Below are positions 1,676 through 17,697 of a stretch of 64,000 bases of DNA, in pieces. This stretch comes from Candidatus Nitrosocosmicus oleophilus (lineage in GTDB: Archaea > Thermoproteota > Nitrososphaeria > Nitrososphaerales > Nitrososphaeraceae). The first letter of the stretch is position 1, and the number at the start of each line of letters is the position of its first letter. Location: positions 2,940,587 through 3,004,586 of the forward strand of contig NZ_CP012850.1 of the NCBI RefSeq assembly GCF_000802205.1, in the 5' to 3' direction. Below the pieces are notes generated by a model that saw only the letters and a list, made by a program, of their open reading frames with translations, was not told where the DNA came from and searched no databases. A program made the position numbers and the translations under genes.

Positions 1676-3475
1676 TCATGGTTTTTTGAATGTAGGTTTG
1701 GGTATAGCAATTTTAATAGGATGTCTAAAGGCAGGATGTACCAAGATAAACTCACCTCTGTGTAGTTTGCTGATAACCGATTTGGTAGTGTCATCTACCA
1801 TTGAATATGGATTTGTAGAAAGCTCGGATAAGCCCAACTTGGTGATAACATGTAACCCAGTATTTTCATTAATGCTCTGATCAATTTGACTTTTGAATTG
1901 CTGTGCAGAGAAAAGTATGCAGTGTCTAGACTTGCCAGTGATCAAAATCTTTAACAGTTCTTCTGCAACAGCCGAACGATTAGACATCGACATTCTGAGA
2001 TCCATATTACCTGATTCTCCCCGTGGCAAAAATCTGTTAATTTCATCAATAAAGATTACAATATATTTTGGTTTTTTTGTCAATTCTTTTTTTGTAATCT
2101 CTTTTTGATCATCAATTTCATCTCCGCTACCCACACTATCGTATTCGTCATCAGGATTATTAGCATGGCCAAGCGAGTACATCTCGTTTATCGTTTTCAT
2201 TACATCTCCCACTACAAACGCTTGCTCATCTAACGTAGGCAGCCTAGCAATATCTATCACAAACACTTCATTCTTATTCATTTTTTTAATTTCCCTACCA
2301 AGATATCTACTTGTTACTTTTTTGTCTACAAATAGAGTAGATGGCTTCCTATATTTTTGGATCATACCCTGAAACTTTAGTAATGTAGTCTTATGGGTAA
2401 CGATTTCTTCTGGGAATTCACTAAAATTGATCAAGTCCGTCCAGTTTGCAATTTTCTGAGGATTTCCCTTGTCACCACCCCTTTGGTCCAAGTTGGGCCA
2501 TAATTCGTAAATGTAATTTAGGATTGAGGAAATATTATGTTGAGGGTCCAGAGTTGATTCAGAGGAAAATAACAATTCCAGCCGATCATAGACATCGGAT
2601 AATTCAAAAGAATATGTGAAGTAGTTTTTCTCAGGAATATGTGCTGAATTTGGTTTACCATCTACTCCCCTTGGGAGAAAATATTTTACATTGTTAAACG
2701 GAGTTAAATTCAAACCAAGGATGTCCAGTTCTTCTTTATCCTCGCTAGCATAAGTTTCCTCTCTTTCTTTATCTATGTATAAAAGATCTTTTTCTTTGGT
2801 ATTAAGTAGAATTATAGAAATACCTTCCTCTAATAGTTTTTGATGAAGGACCTGTAACAAGAATAAGAGATAACTGGTCTTCATGTTCCCTGAAATTCCC
2901 GTGGCGTTAACATGAGTGGTATCAGGTCCAAAAATGTAAGTTACATCCAAGTCAATTGGGATTTTAGTATTGTTAGTCATCGAGATCACGCCTGCGGGAA
3001 TAGGATGTTCCATTTCAGGGATCCCAAGAGATGAAATGACATCCTCTACAGTAGCAAAAGTTACAAGTTTGCCTTCTTGAACAGGCATATTGATGTTCCA
3101 ATTTTTTGATTTTGAAGGTATTTTGTTAGGGCTAGAAGTATTAGAAGAAATATCTTCTTTAAAACTAATTAATTGAAGGTTAGCAATTACATCAATCTTT
3201 GCAACTGTCAGGCCACCGCTCAACTTTTCATCCGAGTTTAAAAGTAAATTGATCTGAGTCGGATAGTAATTTCTAGAAAAAGTTTCGCTGTCTATGTAGA
3301 TTCTCTTTAGTTCTTTGATCATTCCAATAGTTTTTGTGTTCTGGACATTTTCAACACTAATAAAGTCAAATGGGTTTATCAGGATTTCAGGTTTGATTAT
3401 AATCCAAAATGAATCGATAGAATTGGAAAAATTTTCAGATACGAAGGTAATTCCGATGGGTTTGTTATCTTGCAT
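1676..3475 (-). CDS. HerA-like (DUF87) ATPase with HAS-barrel-type N-terminus
   Basis: A 599-residue P-loop ATPase of the HerA/FtsK group. Residues 1-100 resemble the HAS-barrel that precedes HerA motors. A P-loop-like GISGNMKTS segment lies near residue 195, and a clear Walker B (YIVIFIDEINRFLP) near residue 443, followed by a sensor-type region and a C-terminal arm. HerA proteins are hexameric DNA translocases working with nucleases. The P-loop is odd: Met occupies the place of the glycine that normally precedes the catalytic Lys. Whether it hydrolyses ATP normally is therefore open. The ATG start follows a short AT-rich leader. Confidence 0.75.
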   Translation of the reverse strand: MQDNKPIGITFVSENFSNSIDSFWIIIKPEILINPFDFISVENVQNTKTIGMIKELKRIYIDSETFSRNYYPTQINLLLNSDEKLSGGLTVAKIDVIANLQLISFKEDISSNTSSPNKIPSKSKNWNINMPVQEGKLVTFATVEDVISSLGIPEMEHPIPAGVISMTNNTKIPIDLDVTYIFGPDTTHVNATGISGNMKTSYLLFLLQVLHQKLLEEGISIILLNTKEKDLLYIDKEREETYASEDKEELDILGLNLTPFNNVKYFLPRGVDGKPNSAHIPEKNYFTYSFELSDVYDRLELLFSSESTLDPQHNISSILNYIYELWPNLDQRGGDKGNPQKIANWTDLINFSEFPEEIVTHKTTLLKFQGMIQKYRKPSTLFVDKKVTSRYLGREIKKMNKNEVFVIDIARLPTLDEQAFVVGDVMKTINEMYSLGHANNPDDEYDSVGSGDEIDDQKEITKKELTKKPKYIVIFIDEINRFLPRGESGNMDLRMSMSNRSAVAEELLKILITGKSRHCILFSAQQFKSQIDQSINENTGLHVITKLGLSELSTNPYSMVDDTTKSVISKLHRGEFILVHPAFRHPIKIAIPKPTFKKP

Positions 3476-9865: not shown

Positions 9866-11206
9866 ATGCAAAATTTTAGGCGATTGGCATTGCCCCTTTT
9901 TTCAATTATTTTGGTTATTACGATAGCTTTGATAATGTCTGCCTACCTACTTAACCCATCAAATCCATCTTTTGATACCCATGCTCAAAACTCGACCGAC
10001 AATAGAAAAATGATTGGAAGTCATACGCCAGGCTATCCTGTCTTCCGATCAACTGGAGATATACTAGATCCTATTTCTATTCCTGGCAACTCCAAAAATG
10101 CAGTGGTAGATCCGAATCAATATTTACATGAATTCAATTATGGACACGTGTCAAAATATGCCAATGGAACCACCCTAAGAGAATACACACTGATTGCTTC
10201 TGACTCGGAGATAAAAGAAGTGTCACCGGGGGTCTTTTACAATGTGTGGACTTACAACGGCACAATACCTGGCCCGACAATTCGAGCTACAGAAGGTGAT
10301 CACATCAAGATCAATTTCATAAATAACGGTTCAAAACCTCATTCACTACACACCCACGGAATTCATCCAGCAGAGATGGATGGAGTTTTTGACATGGTTG
10401 GTCCAAAGGGCAAGTTCACATATGAATTTACGGCTGAGCCATATGGAGTTTATCCATACCATTGTCACATGACGCCACTAGAGGAGCACATAACACATGG
10501 ACTCTATGGCGTCATGATTATTGATCCAAAGACTCCAAGACCTCCAGCAGATGAAATGGTTATGGTTATGAATGGTTATGATACTGACTTTGACACGGAA
10601 AATAACTTTTACACTGTAAATGGAATCCCATATTTTTATATGCATAATCCGATAGAGATCAAAAAGGATGAGCTAACAAGAATTTACCTAGTCAATATGT
10701 TAGAGTTTGATCCAATAAACAACTTTCATTTGCACGCCAACATGTTTAACTATTATCCAAGTGGAACTAGTCAAACTCCTGCTGAGCTTAATGACATCGT
10801 AACTATGAGTCAAGGAGAAAGAGGCATCTTAGAATTCAAATACAAATATCCAGGAAATTACATGTTCCACGCTCATAAAACAGAATTTGCAGAAAAGGGA
10901 TGGATGGGTATGTTCAAAGTGGTAGACAACAGTCAAGACGATAAAAAAGAGGTTGATCTGAGGAGCAATAGTGCAGAAAACCCAACTAATGTATCTGTTT
11001 CCAAGAATCAGTCCTATCTGGTAGCAAATTCTAGTCAGAACGGTGTAATGAATACTGATTCAGAAAATAACAAGATGACATATAATTACACTGACTATAA
11101 GTTTAGTAACAACTCACTACATAATAGCCAACAACAGACAGCCAATCCAAATGAGGTTATTTCTTCCTATCAGTACGGAACAAACTCAAGCCAAGCCAAG
11201 GAGTAG
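9866..11206 (+). CDS. Two-domain multicopper oxidase, exported
   Basis: A 446-residue exported protein: signal/anchor at residues 5-28, cupredoxin domain 1 at about 100-220, domain 2 at about 230-355, then a Ser/Asn-rich tail of 90 residues. Copper motifs seen are HTHGIH (162-167), HCHMTPLEEH (199-208) with Cys200 as the type 1 ligand, HLHANMF (288-294) and FHAHKTEF (334-341). Domain 2 has no type 1 Cys, so the type 1 site is in domain 1 only. This distinguishes it from three-domain laccases; the family includes nitrite-reductase-like and metal-oxidising enzymes. It sits 7 bases before the ZIP gene. A role in oxidising a metal ion for uptake is inferred from that link. Confidence 0.85.
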   Translation: MQNFRRLALPLFSIILVITIALIMSAYLLNPSNPSFDTHAQNSTDNRKMIGSHTPGYPVFRSTGDILDPISIPGNSKNAVVDPNQYLHEFNYGHVSKYANGTTLREYTLIASDSEIKEVSPGVFYNVWTYNGTIPGPTIRATEGDHIKINFINNGSKPHSLHTHGIHPAEMDGVFDMVGPKGKFTYEFTAEPYGVYPYHCHMTPLEEHITHGLYGVMIIDPKTPRPPADEMVMVMNGYDTDFDTENNFYTVNGIPYFYMHNPIEIKKDELTRIYLVNMLEFDPINNFHLHANMFNYYPSGTSQTPAELNDIVTMSQGERGILEFKYKYPGNYMFHAHKTEFAEKGWMGMFKVVDNSQDDKKEVDLRSNSAENPTNVSVSKNQSYLVANSSQNGVMNTDSENNKMTYNYTDYKFSNNSLHNSQQQTANPNEVISSYQYGTNSSQAKE

Positions 11207-11213
11207 ATAGATA

Positions 11214-12899
11214 ATGAAAGATAAGAAATTAGAAAAAGTAGACAAGGAAAAAGAGTTTGGCAAGAATGATGAAAATAAATTATCCACCAATACTCTCGGC
11301 AATACTGATGGACAAGGTCAAAAGAGGCAAGATATTAGAGATACAGAAGAGCCAACCGCTATTGGTATCAATGCAAGTAATACAAATACAAAGTCAACAA
11401 AAGGAAAAAGAAGAAAAATTGCATCATTGGTCTTAGCAATTACACCACTGATCATTTTAGCAGGGATGGTTTATTTTCTTTCAAGTCCATTTGGACAAAA
11501 CCTGATAAACACTGGAGTTCCTCTACCAGAAGTAACAATAGAAAAAGTAGAATTTCATGAGAATCAAGTGGTGGCTTTTATACGCAATACGGGCCCCGAG
11601 CAAGTTATGATTTCTCAAGCAGACATTAATGATAGGATACAATCTGCCGCAATTGAACCCTCTCAAGTATTGCCCAGGCTTTCAGAAGCTAAAGTCATAA
11701 TACCCTTTTTTTGGAACACAGCAGAACCTTATGAAGTGGGCATAACTACTTCTGACGGAACAAGATTTAGCAAGGTTATCGATGCCGCTGCCCCTGCTCC
11801 GGTTCCAAACATCAATCAGTTCTCAGTATTCGCGATGTTGGGAGTATTCGTAGGGGTAATACCAGTTCTGATTGGACTTGCATGGTATCCGTTTATGAGG
11901 AAAATAACAAGAAACCAGTATAATTTCTTTCTGAGTTTGACCGCAGGATTGCTAGTATTCTTGGGTATTGATGCATTTTTAGAAAGTAACGAAATAGCCG
12001 CGAATAATCTAGCTGCAACATTTAATGGCCAACTTTTAATACCAGTTATAATCATCGCGACTTTCCTTGGGCTATTCTATCTTTCAGAATATTTCGGCAA
12101 GAGAGCAGAGTCAAAGTTATCATTTGAATATGAAAAAGAGGAGACAGAACAGAATGACACAAGACGTTTAAATGCTCAAAATAATTTTCAAGAATCCTCC
12201 GTTAATCCCCTATCTAAAACTAGGGTTTCATCATCATCCTTGACAAACCCGCTTTCAAATGACATGATAGGTTTAGCACAAAAAGAGGAAGAGAAGAATA
12301 GAGTAGAGAAGAAAGAAGAAGAAGAAGAAAAACTAACTCGATTGATTGATAAGCGCGAATTAATAAAGCCACTTACCCTATCGCTAATGGTTGCAATCGG
12401 AATAGGCCTACATAATTTCGGAGAGGGTTTGGCAATAGGGGCAGCTGTTTTACTTGGTGAAATAGCGCTTAGTACCTTTTTAATCATTGGCTTTACAATC
12501 CATAATACAACAGAGGGCCTAGCTATCGTTGCCCCCCTTGCAAAAACAGGAAAGTTAATGATAAGACGATTAGTTGCAATGGGACTGATTGCAGGGATTC
12601 CTACTATTTTAGGCACATGGATCGGTGGATTTGTATACTCTCCTTTGGCCTCAATCATATTCTTGTCGATTGGAGCAGGTGCAATATTTCAGGTCGTTTA
12701 CGCCCTTGCAGTATGGATGAGTAAGTCATTGAGGGAAAGTAGTAAGACTAACAAAGCCGAAAGCGTAGATTTGGGAGAAATAACAGGTAGATCCGGATCA
12801 AGATTATTAGCTTCCCAGGGAAAAAGTCCCACTGCGGCTATAATAGCAGGCTTCATCGTAGGATTGCTAATAATGTATATAACAGGATTGTTGGTGTAG
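11214..12899 (+). CDS. ZIP-family metal transporter with long N-terminal extension
   Basis: A 561-residue membrane protein. A charged cytoplasmic segment (1-70) is followed by a membrane helix (about 72-92) and an extracellular beta-like domain (about 100-195). The ZIP core follows, with a charged linker at about 300-380. The two metal-site helices carry HNFGEGLAIG (His400) and HNTTEGLAIV (His430), the hallmark of ZIP carriers for Zn, Fe or Mn. Plain ZIP proteins have 230-350 residues, so the extracellular domain is an add-on that could meet the multicopper oxidase encoded just upstream. The next gene is a DtxR-type regulator. Confidence 0.88.
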   Translation: MKDKKLEKVDKEKEFGKNDENKLSTNTLGNTDGQGQKRQDIRDTEEPTAIGINASNTNTKSTKGKRRKIASLVLAITPLIILAGMVYFLSSPFGQNLINTGVPLPEVTIEKVEFHENQVVAFIRNTGPEQVMISQADINDRIQSAAIEPSQVLPRLSEAKVIIPFFWNTAEPYEVGITTSDGTRFSKVIDAAAPAPVPNINQFSVFAMLGVFVGVIPVLIGLAWYPFMRKITRNQYNFFLSLTAGLLVFLGIDAFLESNEIAANNLAATFNGQLLIPVIIIATFLGLFYLSEYFGKRAESKLSFEYEKEETEQNDTRRLNAQNNFQESSVNPLSKTRVSSSSLTNPLSNDMIGLAQKEEEKNRVEKKEEEEEKLTRLIDKRELIKPLTLSLMVAIGIGLHNFGEGLAIGAAVLLGEIALSTFLIIGFTIHNTTEGLAIVAPLAKTGKLMIRRLVAMGLIAGIPTILGTWIGGFVYSPLASIIFLSIGAGAIFQVVYALAVWMSKSLRESSKTNKAESVDLGEITGRSGSRLLASQGKSPTAAIIAGFIVGLLIMYITGLLV

Positions 12900-12935
12900 T
12901 GTGATAGTTTTGCAAAGTTTTTTATCAACCCTCGG

Positions 12936-12947
12936 TTTCTATATAAC
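12936..12947 (+). promoter_or_regulatory. TATA box of the DtxR-type regulator gene
   Basis: TTTCTATATAAC is centred about 26 bases before the GTG start, the archaeal spacing for a leaderless transcript. It lies in the 67-base gap after the ZIP gene. The repressor can therefore be transcribed separately. The CTAACTAGG right after it resembles the half-site before the oxidase gene. Confidence 0.5.
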
Positions 12948-12966
12948 TAACTAGGTGGACTAGAAA

Positions 12967-13422
12967 GTGTCAAATAATACTTCATCTTTGGGAGAAAATA
13001 CAATAATTGACTCTATTAGAAAGGTCAATAGTTCACAAAGAAAGGAACGTACAGATAGGATGGAGGACTATCTTGAGATTATTTATGAGCTAGTCCAACA
13101 AAAAGGATATGCTACCAGCGTCGACATTACCGAATGTTTGAATGTCTCAGCCCCTAGTGTTACCAAAATGATGAGAAGGTTAGATACCACAGGATATTTA
13201 GAATATGAAAAATACAGAGGTATTCGTTTAACCCAACAAGGGACAAATGTTGCCCAAAATATTAGAAGAAAACATGAATTATTGACAGAGTTCTTTACTT
13301 TCATAGGTGTACGAGAGGATGTTGCAAACTCAGATGCAGAAGGCATAGAACATCACCTACATTCTGAAACGCTAGAAAAACTAGAAGAATTTCTTAACGC
13401 TAATAGAAAAAAGCAGAAATAA
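12967..13422 (+). CDS. DtxR/MntR-type metal-dependent repressor
   Basis: A 151-residue protein from a GTG start. The winged helix (about residues 22-85) contains RMEDYLEIIYELVQQKGYA and SAPSVTKMMRRLDTTGYL. The dimerisation part has the metal-ligand pattern GIEHHLHSETLEKLEEFL. The C-terminal SH3-like domain of DtxR/IdeR is missing, as in MntR. Such proteins bind Mn or Fe and then repress uptake genes. Its position after the multicopper oxidase and ZIP genes makes those its probable targets. Confidence 0.9.
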   Translation: MSNNTSSLGENTIIDSIRKVNSSQRKERTDRMEDYLEIIYELVQQKGYATSVDITECLNVSAPSVTKMMRRLDTTGYLEYEKYRGIRLTQQGTNVAQNIRRKHELLTEFFTFIGVREDVANSDAEGIEHHLHSETLEKLEEFLNANRKKQK

Positions 13423-13904: not shown

Positions 13905-14663
13905 TCATATTTTCTCATAATAATCTATTATTCTAGACATATCGCTATTCTTTCGCTTCTTTCTCTGTTGAAGTATAGTTTCCCAATTAACAGAATAGTT
14001 TTTTGTAACGTCTTCTATCTCCGTGCCTGAAAATGCTAGCACATATTGATACTTTTTATTCCAATTTTGTTCATAATAATGAGGGTTATTGACCGAAATA
14101 GGATATTCAAGAGTTGAATCCACATGAATCCATTTTTCTTCTATTAAAGCTTCGTTCCAACAGTGATCGAGAAAATCGTGAACAATTCTAGATTGAATCG
14201 ATAGAGAACTGAGTATGGCCCCAAATAGAAACGACCATTCACTACATCTACCGATCCGATTAAATGCTATGTTTTCTATTTCGCCGTAACGGGGGAACGC
14301 CAGGGTAAAAGAACATTGAGGGCAATCATAATATTCTACACTTCTTACTATCCATGAATTTCCCTTAACATATCTAAGACTTAATGATATGTTGCACGAT
14401 GGACATACTGGGCTCTTATCCATCCATTTCATAAAATCGTGTTTGAACCAATAAAGCAGCAAGGCCATAGGTATCTTCAAGTCTAATTTTCCTCCTACTG
14501 CCCCTTCAAATTTGTTTTTAATTTTGATTGGCACTAGCATCCTAATGGATTCAAGTAGGTACCTATCCAGATATTGCTTGCTCACTTGCTTGTACAAGAC
14601 AAGAGTGTCCTTTGTAATTGGATAAGGAAGACCACTATTTGCTAAATCAAAAAAGTTTAGCAC
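13905..14663 (-). CDS. Peptide:N-glycanase-like transglutaminase-fold protein
   Basis: A 252-residue protein closely laid out like the core of eukaryotic cytosolic PNGase (Png1/NGLY1), which removes N-glycans from misfolded glycoproteins. Two CxxC knuckles (Cys87/Cys90, Cys114/Cys117) match the PNGase zinc site. The triad is Cys140 in GRCSEWSFLF, His167 in DHCWNE and Asp182 in WIHVDST. The Cys-His spacing of 27 equals that of yeast Png1 as I recall it. The downstream YYEQNWNKKYQYVLAFS and EDVTKNYS segments also mirror Png1. The PUB domain is absent. It is divergent from an M1 aminopeptidase (265 bases apart). Glycan-releasing activity is inferred; a transglutaminase-like protease is the alternative. 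Confidence 0.75.
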   Translation of the reverse strand: MLNFFDLANSGLPYPITKDTLVLYKQVSKQYLDRYLLESIRMLVPIKIKNKFEGAVGGKLDLKIPMALLLYWFKHDFMKWMDKSPVCPSCNISLSLRYVKGNSWIVRSVEYYDCPQCSFTLAFPRYGEIENIAFNRIGRCSEWSFLFGAILSSLSIQSRIVHDFLDHCWNEALIEEKWIHVDSTLEYPISVNNPHYYEQNWNKKYQYVLAFSGTEIEDVTKNYSVNWETILQQRKKRKNSDMSRIIDYYEKI

Positions 14664-14928: not shown

Positions 14929-17697
14929 ATGATACAACTTAACAAAGATTCTATTGAAACTGAAAAAAAAGTGTCAGAAAAAAAAAGGTTTGTGTTTCCA
15001 GGAAGCAAAGTCCACTCTATGCCTTTCTTGTCTTTTACGATTGAGCATATGTCGTTAAAGATAAAGCCTGATCTAGTAAACAAGATCCTACTTGATTGCG
15101 AACAGCAAATAACAATTAGGGCTTTCGATGATTTAGCAGAAATCGTGTTAGATATTTCTGATTTAAAAGTTTCAAAGGTAAATTCACAGTCTATTAATAT
15201 TTCAAATTTTAGATGCGTTGATAACAAGCAAGTCATAATAGAATTTTCAGAACAATTTAGAGCTGGAAGCACCGTAAACGTTGATATTTCATATTCTGCC
15301 GGCTATACCAGTATTGACGGCAAAGAAGAATTCGGTTCTCCAAAAACTGGGTTTCACTTTATTACAAAGAGTAATTATAGCAAACAAATTCCTGCATACC
15401 AAGCGTGGACACAAGGAGAAGCAACCGAATCACGATACTGGTTTCCGTCAATTGATATACCCCAGGTCAAATTTACTTTGGATATCGAAGTCTCTGCACC
15501 ACAAGGGTACGATGTAATTTCAAATGGATTATTAGAATCAAAGGTTATGAAAGATGAATTTGTAATTTGGAAGTATGTTGAAAAAAGACCCCTTCCTTCT
15601 TACCTTATTTCAGTTGTAATTGGTACGTTTTCACATTATGAATCAAAATATAGAGACGTTTCCCTCTACTATTACTGGCCAGAAGAGATTAAAGAAGAAG
15701 ATGCCATGTTAACTTTTTCTGAGACTCCGAAAATGTTAAAATTCTTTGAAGAATATTTCGAAACCAATTATCCTTTCAAAAAATACTCTCAGACCGCTGT
15801 TGATAATTTTGAGTTTGGAGGTATGGAAAATACCACCTGCACTACTTTAACCAGGAGAGTTTTGCATGATAAAAAAGCTTCTAGCGACTATAGAAATGAT
15901 ATTTTTTTGGTCGTTCACGAGCTTGCACACCAGTGGTTTGGAGATATGGTTACCTGCAAAGATTGGCCGCATATTTGGTTAAATGAAGGATTTGCCACAT
16001 ATTGTGAATCATTGTATTGGGAAAATTCTCGTGGAAAAGATGAATTTCAGTATAACTTGATAGAAGCTACAGATATTTATTTTGAAGAATCAAATACACT
16101 CTATAACAGACCAATTGTTACTAATTTATATAAACATGTAGATGATTTGTTTGACGCCCATTCATATGAAAAATCAGGGTTTATCCTCCACATGATTCGA
16201 AATCATGTAGGAGAGAATAATTTTAGAAAATCACTTAAGGTCTATTTGGAAAAATATCAGAACAGATCGGCTGAAACGCTAGACTTGCTAAAAGTAATTG
16301 AAGAAGTCTCAGGTAGAGAAATGGCATCATTTTTTGACCAATGGATTTACAAACAAGGTCACCCTAAATTGGAGATCGAGTATTCTCTGGAGAATAGTGA
16401 TTCTATTGAGAATGTTAACAGAAATTCTCAAAGACTGAAAATCAAAATCTTACAGAAAAACATAGATGATAGCTATGAAGATTCCTTTAGATATTATCAA
16501 TTTCAATTGGAATTTAAAATAAAAATTGTAGATAGTTCTGGTCAAAAAAACCAAATGGCGCATTTAATGAATGTGAATAACAATGATTCAGAGTCGTTTG
16601 TAGATATAGTCGGCAATTTCAATATTGAATCGATCTCCATTGATCCAGAATTTAAGATTCTAAAAGAAATAAGTTCTATTAAAGTAGTAAATGAAACCAG
16701 AGACTTTCAATTAAAGAAATTGCTTCATAACCAAGTGAAATGTGGAGAAACCATTGTAGAAAGAATTAACGCTTTAAGATTACTGAAGGATCGATATTCA
16801 GAAGATGGGATCAGGGCACTTTATGATGCAATTGTTCAAGACAAATTTTATGGGGTAGCCATTGAGGCGGCGAATACACTTGGCTCTTTTTATGACAAAA
16901 ATAATTATGAAAAATCTGATAATTCATATCAGTGTTTGGTTTCCATATTAAGTAGTAAATCAACCTTTGATGCTTTACGATCGGAGGTCAAAAAAGCTGT
17001 CATTAGAAACATTGGGATATTTGAAAGAGTTGAATCAATTAGTTTGCTAAAAGATGTAATTCACGGATCTAGAGACGAAAGCAATTTTGTAAGATCATCT
17101 GCGGCTACGGCCCTAGGAAAAAGCAGTAAGGAGGTAGAAGAGGTGAAGAATAAGTTCCAAGTAATTTCACTTTTAAAAAACCTTGTTGAAGAAACAGAGA
17201 CTTTTCAAAACGTTTTAGCTACTGGGGCTTTGGAAGGACTGAAAGAGTTAGCAACTGATAAAGATAACCAGATACGCATTGAGGTAGCTAATTTTTTTCT
17301 GGAGAATACACTTGAATCAAAGGACTACTTTGTGAGAGCCCAGGCAACATCAAATTTGGCCAAGTTTTTGGTTAGCAAGAATGACACGGTAGACGCAGAC
17401 ACTAGTGCTATGCACCAGGCTGTTTTTAACAGACTTAAGGATTTGTTAAGAGATGATAGACGAAAGATAAAGATAAATGCTTGTTCTGCACTCGCTGATA
17501 AAGACGGAAGATTTCACACTATACCAGATAAGCGAACGTACGAAACGATCCAAGTGCTTATTGATGTCGCAAAAAATGATATGGACGGATTTGTTAGAAG
17601 AAAAGCTGAACATAGTGCAAACATCGTGAGAGAATGGATACATACATGGGCAAGTAAACCCTTGCTAGTCAATTCTGAACCTAGTTCCAGTTCATAA
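14929..17697 (+). CDS. M1-family aminopeptidase with C-terminal HEAT-like repeats
   Basis: A 922-residue zinc aminopeptidase. The N-terminal beta domain (about 25-230) precedes the GGMEN exopeptidase motif (about 297-301) and the zinc site HELAHQW (His330, Glu331, His334) with Glu353 in WLNEGF. A catalytic Tyr region follows (HSYEKSGFILHMI). Residues from about 590 to 905 form helical pairs of HEAT/armadillo type. The layout recalls tricorn-interacting factors F2/F3, which trim proteasome products, and eukaryotic TAF2. No signal peptide is seen, so it acts in the cytoplasm. The divergent PNGase-like gene suggests a joint role in protein turnover. Confidence 0.9.
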   Translation: MIQLNKDSIETEKKVSEKKRFVFPGSKVHSMPFLSFTIEHMSLKIKPDLVNKILLDCEQQITIRAFDDLAEIVLDISDLKVSKVNSQSINISNFRCVDNKQVIIEFSEQFRAGSTVNVDISYSAGYTSIDGKEEFGSPKTGFHFITKSNYSKQIPAYQAWTQGEATESRYWFPSIDIPQVKFTLDIEVSAPQGYDVISNGLLESKVMKDEFVIWKYVEKRPLPSYLISVVIGTFSHYESKYRDVSLYYYWPEEIKEEDAMLTFSETPKMLKFFEEYFETNYPFKKYSQTAVDNFEFGGMENTTCTTLTRRVLHDKKASSDYRNDIFLVVHELAHQWFGDMVTCKDWPHIWLNEGFATYCESLYWENSRGKDEFQYNLIEATDIYFEESNTLYNRPIVTNLYKHVDDLFDAHSYEKSGFILHMIRNHVGENNFRKSLKVYLEKYQNRSAETLDLLKVIEEVSGREMASFFDQWIYKQGHPKLEIEYSLENSDSIENVNRNSQRLKIKILQKNIDDSYEDSFRYYQFQLEFKIKIVDSSGQKNQMAHLMNVNNNDSESFVDIVGNFNIESISIDPEFKILKEISSIKVVNETRDFQLKKLLHNQVKCGETIVERINALRLLKDRYSEDGIRALYDAIVQDKFYGVAIEAANTLGSFYDKNNYEKSDNSYQCLVSILSSKSTFDALRSEVKKAVIRNIGIFERVESISLLKDVIHGSRDESNFVRSSAATALGKSSKEVEEVKNKFQVISLLKNLVEETETFQNVLATGALEGLKELATDKDNQIRIEVANFFLENTLESKDYFVRAQATSNLAKFLVSKNDTVDADTSAMHQAVFNRLKDLLRDDRRKIKINACSALADKDGRFHTIPDKRTYETIQVLIDVAKNDMDGFVRRKAEHSANIVREWIHTWASKPLLVNSEPSSSS

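Follow-up and report, generated by a model that had tools for sequence, protein, structure and literature searches.

A probable peptide:N-glycanase of the Png1 type in ammonia-oxidizing archaea

Here, we present an analysis of a gene in a 64,000-nucleotide stretch of the chromosome of Candidatus Nitrosocosmicus oleophilus, to which we refer as the window. The gene has its stop codon at 13905-13907 and begins with a GTG codon that is conserved across the Nitrosocosmicus-type orthologues (Table 1). The encoded protein shows no evident signal peptide or transmembrane stretch in its sequence, matches Pfam PF01841 (Transglut_core) at 39.3 bits versus a cut-off of 23, and is the sole Transglut_core protein of the genome. 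The divergently transcribed gene for an M1-family aminopeptidase is located 265 bp away and is kept in six Nitrosocosmicus-type loci. Such a neighbor would suit peptide clearance; however, it is present in one Nitrosocosmicus subclade only, with a possible distant fragment in one other genus, and guilt by association with the aminopeptidase is therefore weak. At 9866-13422, genes for a multicopper oxidase, a ZIP metal transporter, and a DtxR-type repressor lie in a row, as they do in several Nitrosocosmicus-type loci, and look like a metal-responsive cluster. At loci L098, L100, and L104-L108, which represent two genera of one archaeal family and a single genus of another, the Png1-like gene faces a convergent MFS transporter gene; because this neighbor is common to both families, we suggest that the linkage is ancestral. 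In the loci compared, no conserved glycan-processing partner gene adjoins the Png1-like gene.

Table 1. Genes and protein features at the locus, in window coordinates
Feature	Position	Strand	Basis or remark
Multicopper oxidase, neighborhood kept	9866..11206	+	Pfam PF07732/PF07731; synteny
DtxR-type metal-dependent repressor, convergent neighbor	12967..13422	+	Pfam PF01325/PF02742; synteny
Png1-type peptide:N-glycanase-like protein	13905..14663	-	252 aa, GTG start
Transglutaminase-fold catalytic core, residues 138-223	13995..14252	-	Pfam PF01841; PNGase alignments
Catalytic Asp182 codon	14118..14120	-	Translation; PNGase alignment
Catalytic His167 codon	14163..14165	-	Translation; PNGase alignment
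Catalytic Cys140 codon	14244..14246	-	Translation; PNGase alignment
Zinc-ribbon segment C87xxC90 ... C114xxC117	14313..14405	-	ORF translation; aligned to yeast Png1
M1-family aminopeptidase with HEAT repeats, divergently transcribed	14929..17697	+	Pfam PF01433/PF17900; synteny

The original prediction described a eukaryotic-style peptide:N-glycanase (PNGase) core with two CxxC pairs, a Cys140-His167-Asp182 triad with the Cys-His spacing of yeast Png1, and downstream segments resembling Png1, and alignments bear out each of these elements. C140/H167/D182 align with C191/H218/D235 of yeast PNGase (PMC9102325) and C306/H333/D350 of mouse PNGase (PMC12248763), while C87/C90 and C114/C117, the predicted zinc ligands, correspond in the alignment to zinc cysteines 129/132/165/168 of yeast (PMC9102325). 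The last zinc cysteine lies 23 residues ahead of the catalytic cysteine, as in yeast. Downstream, the aligned yeast counterparts of NWNKKYQYVLAFS and EDVTKNYS are NWNKKMSYCIAF and VDVSKRYI, respectively. Across the 19 aligned archaeal homologues, the zinc cysteines and the triad never vary, nor do many of the residues around them; the FPRY motif and the segment following the catalytic Asp vary little or not at all, and W201 and K203 within this segment are invariant. In total, 45 positions are identical in the window protein, mouse, and yeast, and most of them are invariant in the 19 archaeal rows. The invariant W80, C114, E142, and R159 correspond to W244, C283, E311, and R328 of human NGLY1, which are among the positions of patient variants (PMC9102325). 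The Cys-His spacing is 27 in the archaeal, yeast, and mouse proteins; because this spacing is also found in short transglutaminase-like proteins of the phylum, it is weak evidence and by itself proves nothing. Among eight Nitrosocosmicus-type orthologues, pN/pS is 0.17-0.36, indicating purifying selection on the protein.

Beyond the zinc CxxC pairs, the triad, and the FPRY motif, the archaeal protein has in common with the eukaryotic cytosolic PNGases (yeast Png1 and mouse/human NGLY1; PDB 1x3w, 3esw, and 2f4m) the segment following the catalytic Asp (Y...W.K, AF, DV..Y), the N-terminal helices, and the overall core fold, at about 28% identity. It differs from them in lacking the eukaryote-specific PUB and PAW domains, for neither of which there is room, and in a segment past the catalytic Asp that is 3 residues longer. 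Also, the Nitrosocosmicus forms mostly have GRCSEW in place of the GRCGEW of Png1, which is kept in the g20, G041, and G024 forms.

Mouse PNGase (E value 7.2e-28) and yeast Png1 (8.5e-24 and 9.6e-24) were the only significant matches in a search of PDB sequences with the single protein. With a profile of the 19 archaeal sequences, the PNGases matched at 2.5e-41 and 2.6e-38, and all non-PNGase entries had E values of 0.06 or worse. At E values this low (7e-28 with the single sequence, 2.5e-41 with the profile), a chance resemblance to PNGases is excluded. The zinc-ribbon/N-terminal part alone recognized both PNGases and recognized no other protein of the phylum comparably. An AlphaFold (AF2) model of the protein (pLDDT 85.9; pTM 0.86) matched mouse PNGase first, with a Foldseek E value of 3e-16 and a Z score of 21.5 over 235 residues, followed by yeast Png1 (Z 18.9), while transglutaminases scored below 10.

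For phylogenetic analysis, we used only the transglutaminase core (about 124 columns) and removed the zinc ribbon so that it would not drive the result; an earlier full-length tree with very long branches had left the eukaryotic rows unplaced. The core tree included 16 archaeal representatives, mouse and yeast Png1, and short proteins of the phylum, with no Asgard rows. All 16 archaeal representatives form one clade (100/96), within which the two archaeal families separate as vertical descent predicts. This clade joins mouse and yeast Png1 at 93/89, a support that is good but not starred and that concerns two eukaryotic rows. A topology that unites the eukaryotic rows with the short phylum proteins was rejected (AU p 0.004), as was one that unites the archaeal set with these short transglutaminase-like proteins (AU p 0.002). 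Because the protein also has the zinc ribbon, we reject that it is a generic archaeal transglutaminase-like protease, and the core groups with Png1. We conclude that the zinc ribbon and the tree, rather than the Cys-His spacing, are the discriminating evidence for kinship with Png1. Together with the sequence searches and the predicted fold, the phylogeny makes the assignment to the Png1/NGLY1 family well supported. The gene, thus, encodes a Png1-type scaffold with an intact triad, the zinc-ligand pattern, and the predicted fold, under purifying selection.

The genome encodes one AglB/STT3 oligosaccharyltransferase and two Glyco_tran_28_C proteins, a domain family of Alg13- and MurG-type enzymes, making them candidates for Alg13/MurG-like glycosyltransferases. 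Alg14-13 homologues occur in the TACK superphylum, including Thaumarchaeota, and one has been inferred in the TACK ancestor (PMC8993221). A study of the related ammonia oxidizer N. viennensis reports a chitobiose-core N-glycan in this organism, with multicopper oxidases among its main N-glycoproteins, and none in the marine N. piranensis (PMC12153357). Thus, a bond type suited to a PNGase exists in this archaeal group, and an intact, conserved Png1-type core occurs in a group with known chitobiose-core N-glycans. The gene is absent from three complete Nitrososphaera-like genomes (G025, G026, and G042), which we take to be probably those of N. evergladensis, N. gargensis, and N. viennensis. Therefore, N-glycosylation does not imply a PNGase, and, because the probable N. 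viennensis genome is without the gene, chitobiose N-glycosylation does not require the enzyme.

Based on sequence and the predicted structure, we favor the idea that the protein belongs to the Png1/NGLY1 family as a minimal, zinc-containing cytosolic form that would deglycosylate cytosolic glycopeptides or unfolded glycoproteins, and we consider this reading reasonably likely to be correct. PNGase function is probable. We suggest that Cys140, activated by His167/Asp182, would attack the side-chain amide of an N-glycosylated Asn; the glycan would leave as a glycosylamine and Asp would stay in the peptide. As in yeast Png1, the cleft could be supported by the zinc ribbon together with the N-terminal helices. 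Substrates may be cytosolic glycopeptides or unfolded N-glycoproteins, i.e., surface proteins that failed or are being recycled, or peptides taken up by the cell, and their deglycosylation would precede final breakdown by peptidases. Glycosylated chains might enter the cytosol by retrotranslocation, by peptide import, or from lysed neighbors.

Alternatively, the protein could be a cysteine protease or amidase with the Png1 fold that acts on another amide, e.g., a peptide bond or free glycosyl-Asn, rather than on the N-glycans of glycoproteins. Proteases and amidases have the same transglutaminase fold and triad, and the genome has no second transglutaminase-core protein. Also, the gene adjoins that for the M1 aminopeptidase in one Nitrosocosmicus subclade, and Nitrososphaera-like genomes, including one that probably belongs to the glycosylating N. 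viennensis, do without it. However, the Png1-specific zinc ribbon, the FPRY motif, and the segment following the catalytic Asp show little or no variation, and the core groups with Png1, apart from other archaeal transglutaminase-like proteins. These observations argue that an activity on another amide is rather doubtful.

It is also conceivable that the protein is a noncatalytic binding or scaffold protein, in analogy to Rad4/XPC, which are relatives that are inactive through loss of the triad and that act on DNA. XPC/Rad4 is the second-best kind of structural match to the AlphaFold model after the PNGases, with a Z score of about 15, and has the same fold. In contrast to XPC/Rad4, which is inactivated and carries DNA-binding hairpin domains, the archaeal protein has the full triad in 19 of 19 aligned homologues and ends right after the Png1 core (about 30 residues past it), such that the Rad4 beta-hairpin DNA-binding domains do not fit. 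Moreover, the NCBIfam rad4 model gave 20.9 bits versus a cut-off of 400. Based on the intact triad, the early end, the rad4 score, and the lower fold score, we reject membership in XPC/Rad4, and a noncatalytic role appears very unlikely.

The Png1-like gene is present in 34 of 70 Nitrososphaeraceae genomes, representing 10 of 12 genera. A second family of the order has a gene with the zinc ribbon in only one genus, which we presume to be Nitrosotalea, and patchily (11 of 37 genomes); searches of the other families sampled in the order did not recover it. In the rest of the phylum, no profile match exceeds 74 bits, and the top-scoring proteins are either short and devoid of the zinc ribbon or transglutaminase-like and membrane-anchored. 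A scan of named genome contigs with the window protein recovered only close relatives (Candidatus Nitrosocosmicus and Nitrososphaerales MAGs), and the protein had no match in plasmid and phage records. In two genomes of the Nitrosocosmicus genus (G013 and G014), the copies contain several in-frame stops (L111, G013:C75; L112, G014:C42) and apparently are decaying genes or assembly errors; these copies suggest that the gene can be lost.

Outside the ammonia-oxidizing archaea, no known family is closer than eukaryotic Png1, and one could envisage that the gene was recently acquired from a eukaryote or is a contaminant. We reject this as highly improbable, because the gene lies on a complete, single-contig chromosome (3.43 Mb; 99.75% complete), has a GC content (35.6%) matching that of the window (34.3%), has conserved neighbors including the convergent MFS gene common to both families, and occurs as one clade in most genera of its family and in a genus of a second one. 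Rather, the synteny suggests that inheritance is old and mainly vertical, with losses. An ancient transfer between archaea and eukaryotes, in either direction, may have occurred.

Png1 is usually viewed as a eukaryotic enzyme that works in partnership with endoplasmic-reticulum-associated degradation. If the archaeal protein is an active PNGase, cytosolic N-glycan removal would not need an endoplasmic reticulum, and the protein would provide a small experimental enzyme for studying the origin of Png1 and of the DNA-repair protein XPC. As a more far-reaching idea, which we hold to be speculative and unlikely to be correct in full, archaea near the eukaryotic host lineage would have had a cytosolic deglycosylation enzyme ancestral to Png1 and XPC/Rad4, and in ammonia oxidizers this enzyme would clear glycopeptides and return nitrogen, because hydrolysis of the glycosylamine that a PNGase releases yields ammonia from the amide nitrogen of Asn. 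In the open-access literature that we found, a scope that most subscription journals fall outside, no archaeal Png1-type enzyme is described, and as far as these papers show, the protein is new to Archaea. If active, it would belong to the same reaction class (N-glycan release) as the bacterial enzymes of the PNGase F type, which have an unrelated double-jelly-roll fold (PMC8812541) and are secreted (PMC9102325).

A divergent homologue with a virus-like context was found on a short contig (G300:C26:1-4895) that is binned with an ammonia oxidizer of the second family and that also carries genes for a family-B DNA polymerase and a 5'-nucleotidase-like protein with phage-family matches. Its open reading frame (L110; about 2502-3053, plus strand) encodes a Png1-like core with GRCGEWANLF and without the zinc ribbon, and is possibly a viral derivative of Png1. 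Adding this row to the core tree opens the fork between the archaeal set and Png1, while holding the archaeal set, the eukaryotes, and the virus-like row together costs nothing. Scans of viral contigs with the archaeal profile, the mouse core, and this homologue gave no confirmed relative.

The short transglutaminase-like proteins of the phylum (L067-L073) are about 170 aa, look cytosolic, and constitute an uncharacterized second archaeal group near Png1. Their core has GxCxEF, DHxWxE, W.HVDPS, and W.K with a Cys-His spacing of 27; they lack the zinc ribbon, form a separate branch in the core tree, and score 65-74 bits with the core profile versus 88-97 bits for Png1. Finally, in one Nitrosocosmicus subclade (L017, L020, L022, and L028), a Ser/Asn-rich low-complexity insert of 40-60 residues separates the N-terminal helices of the Png1-like protein from its WFK motif.
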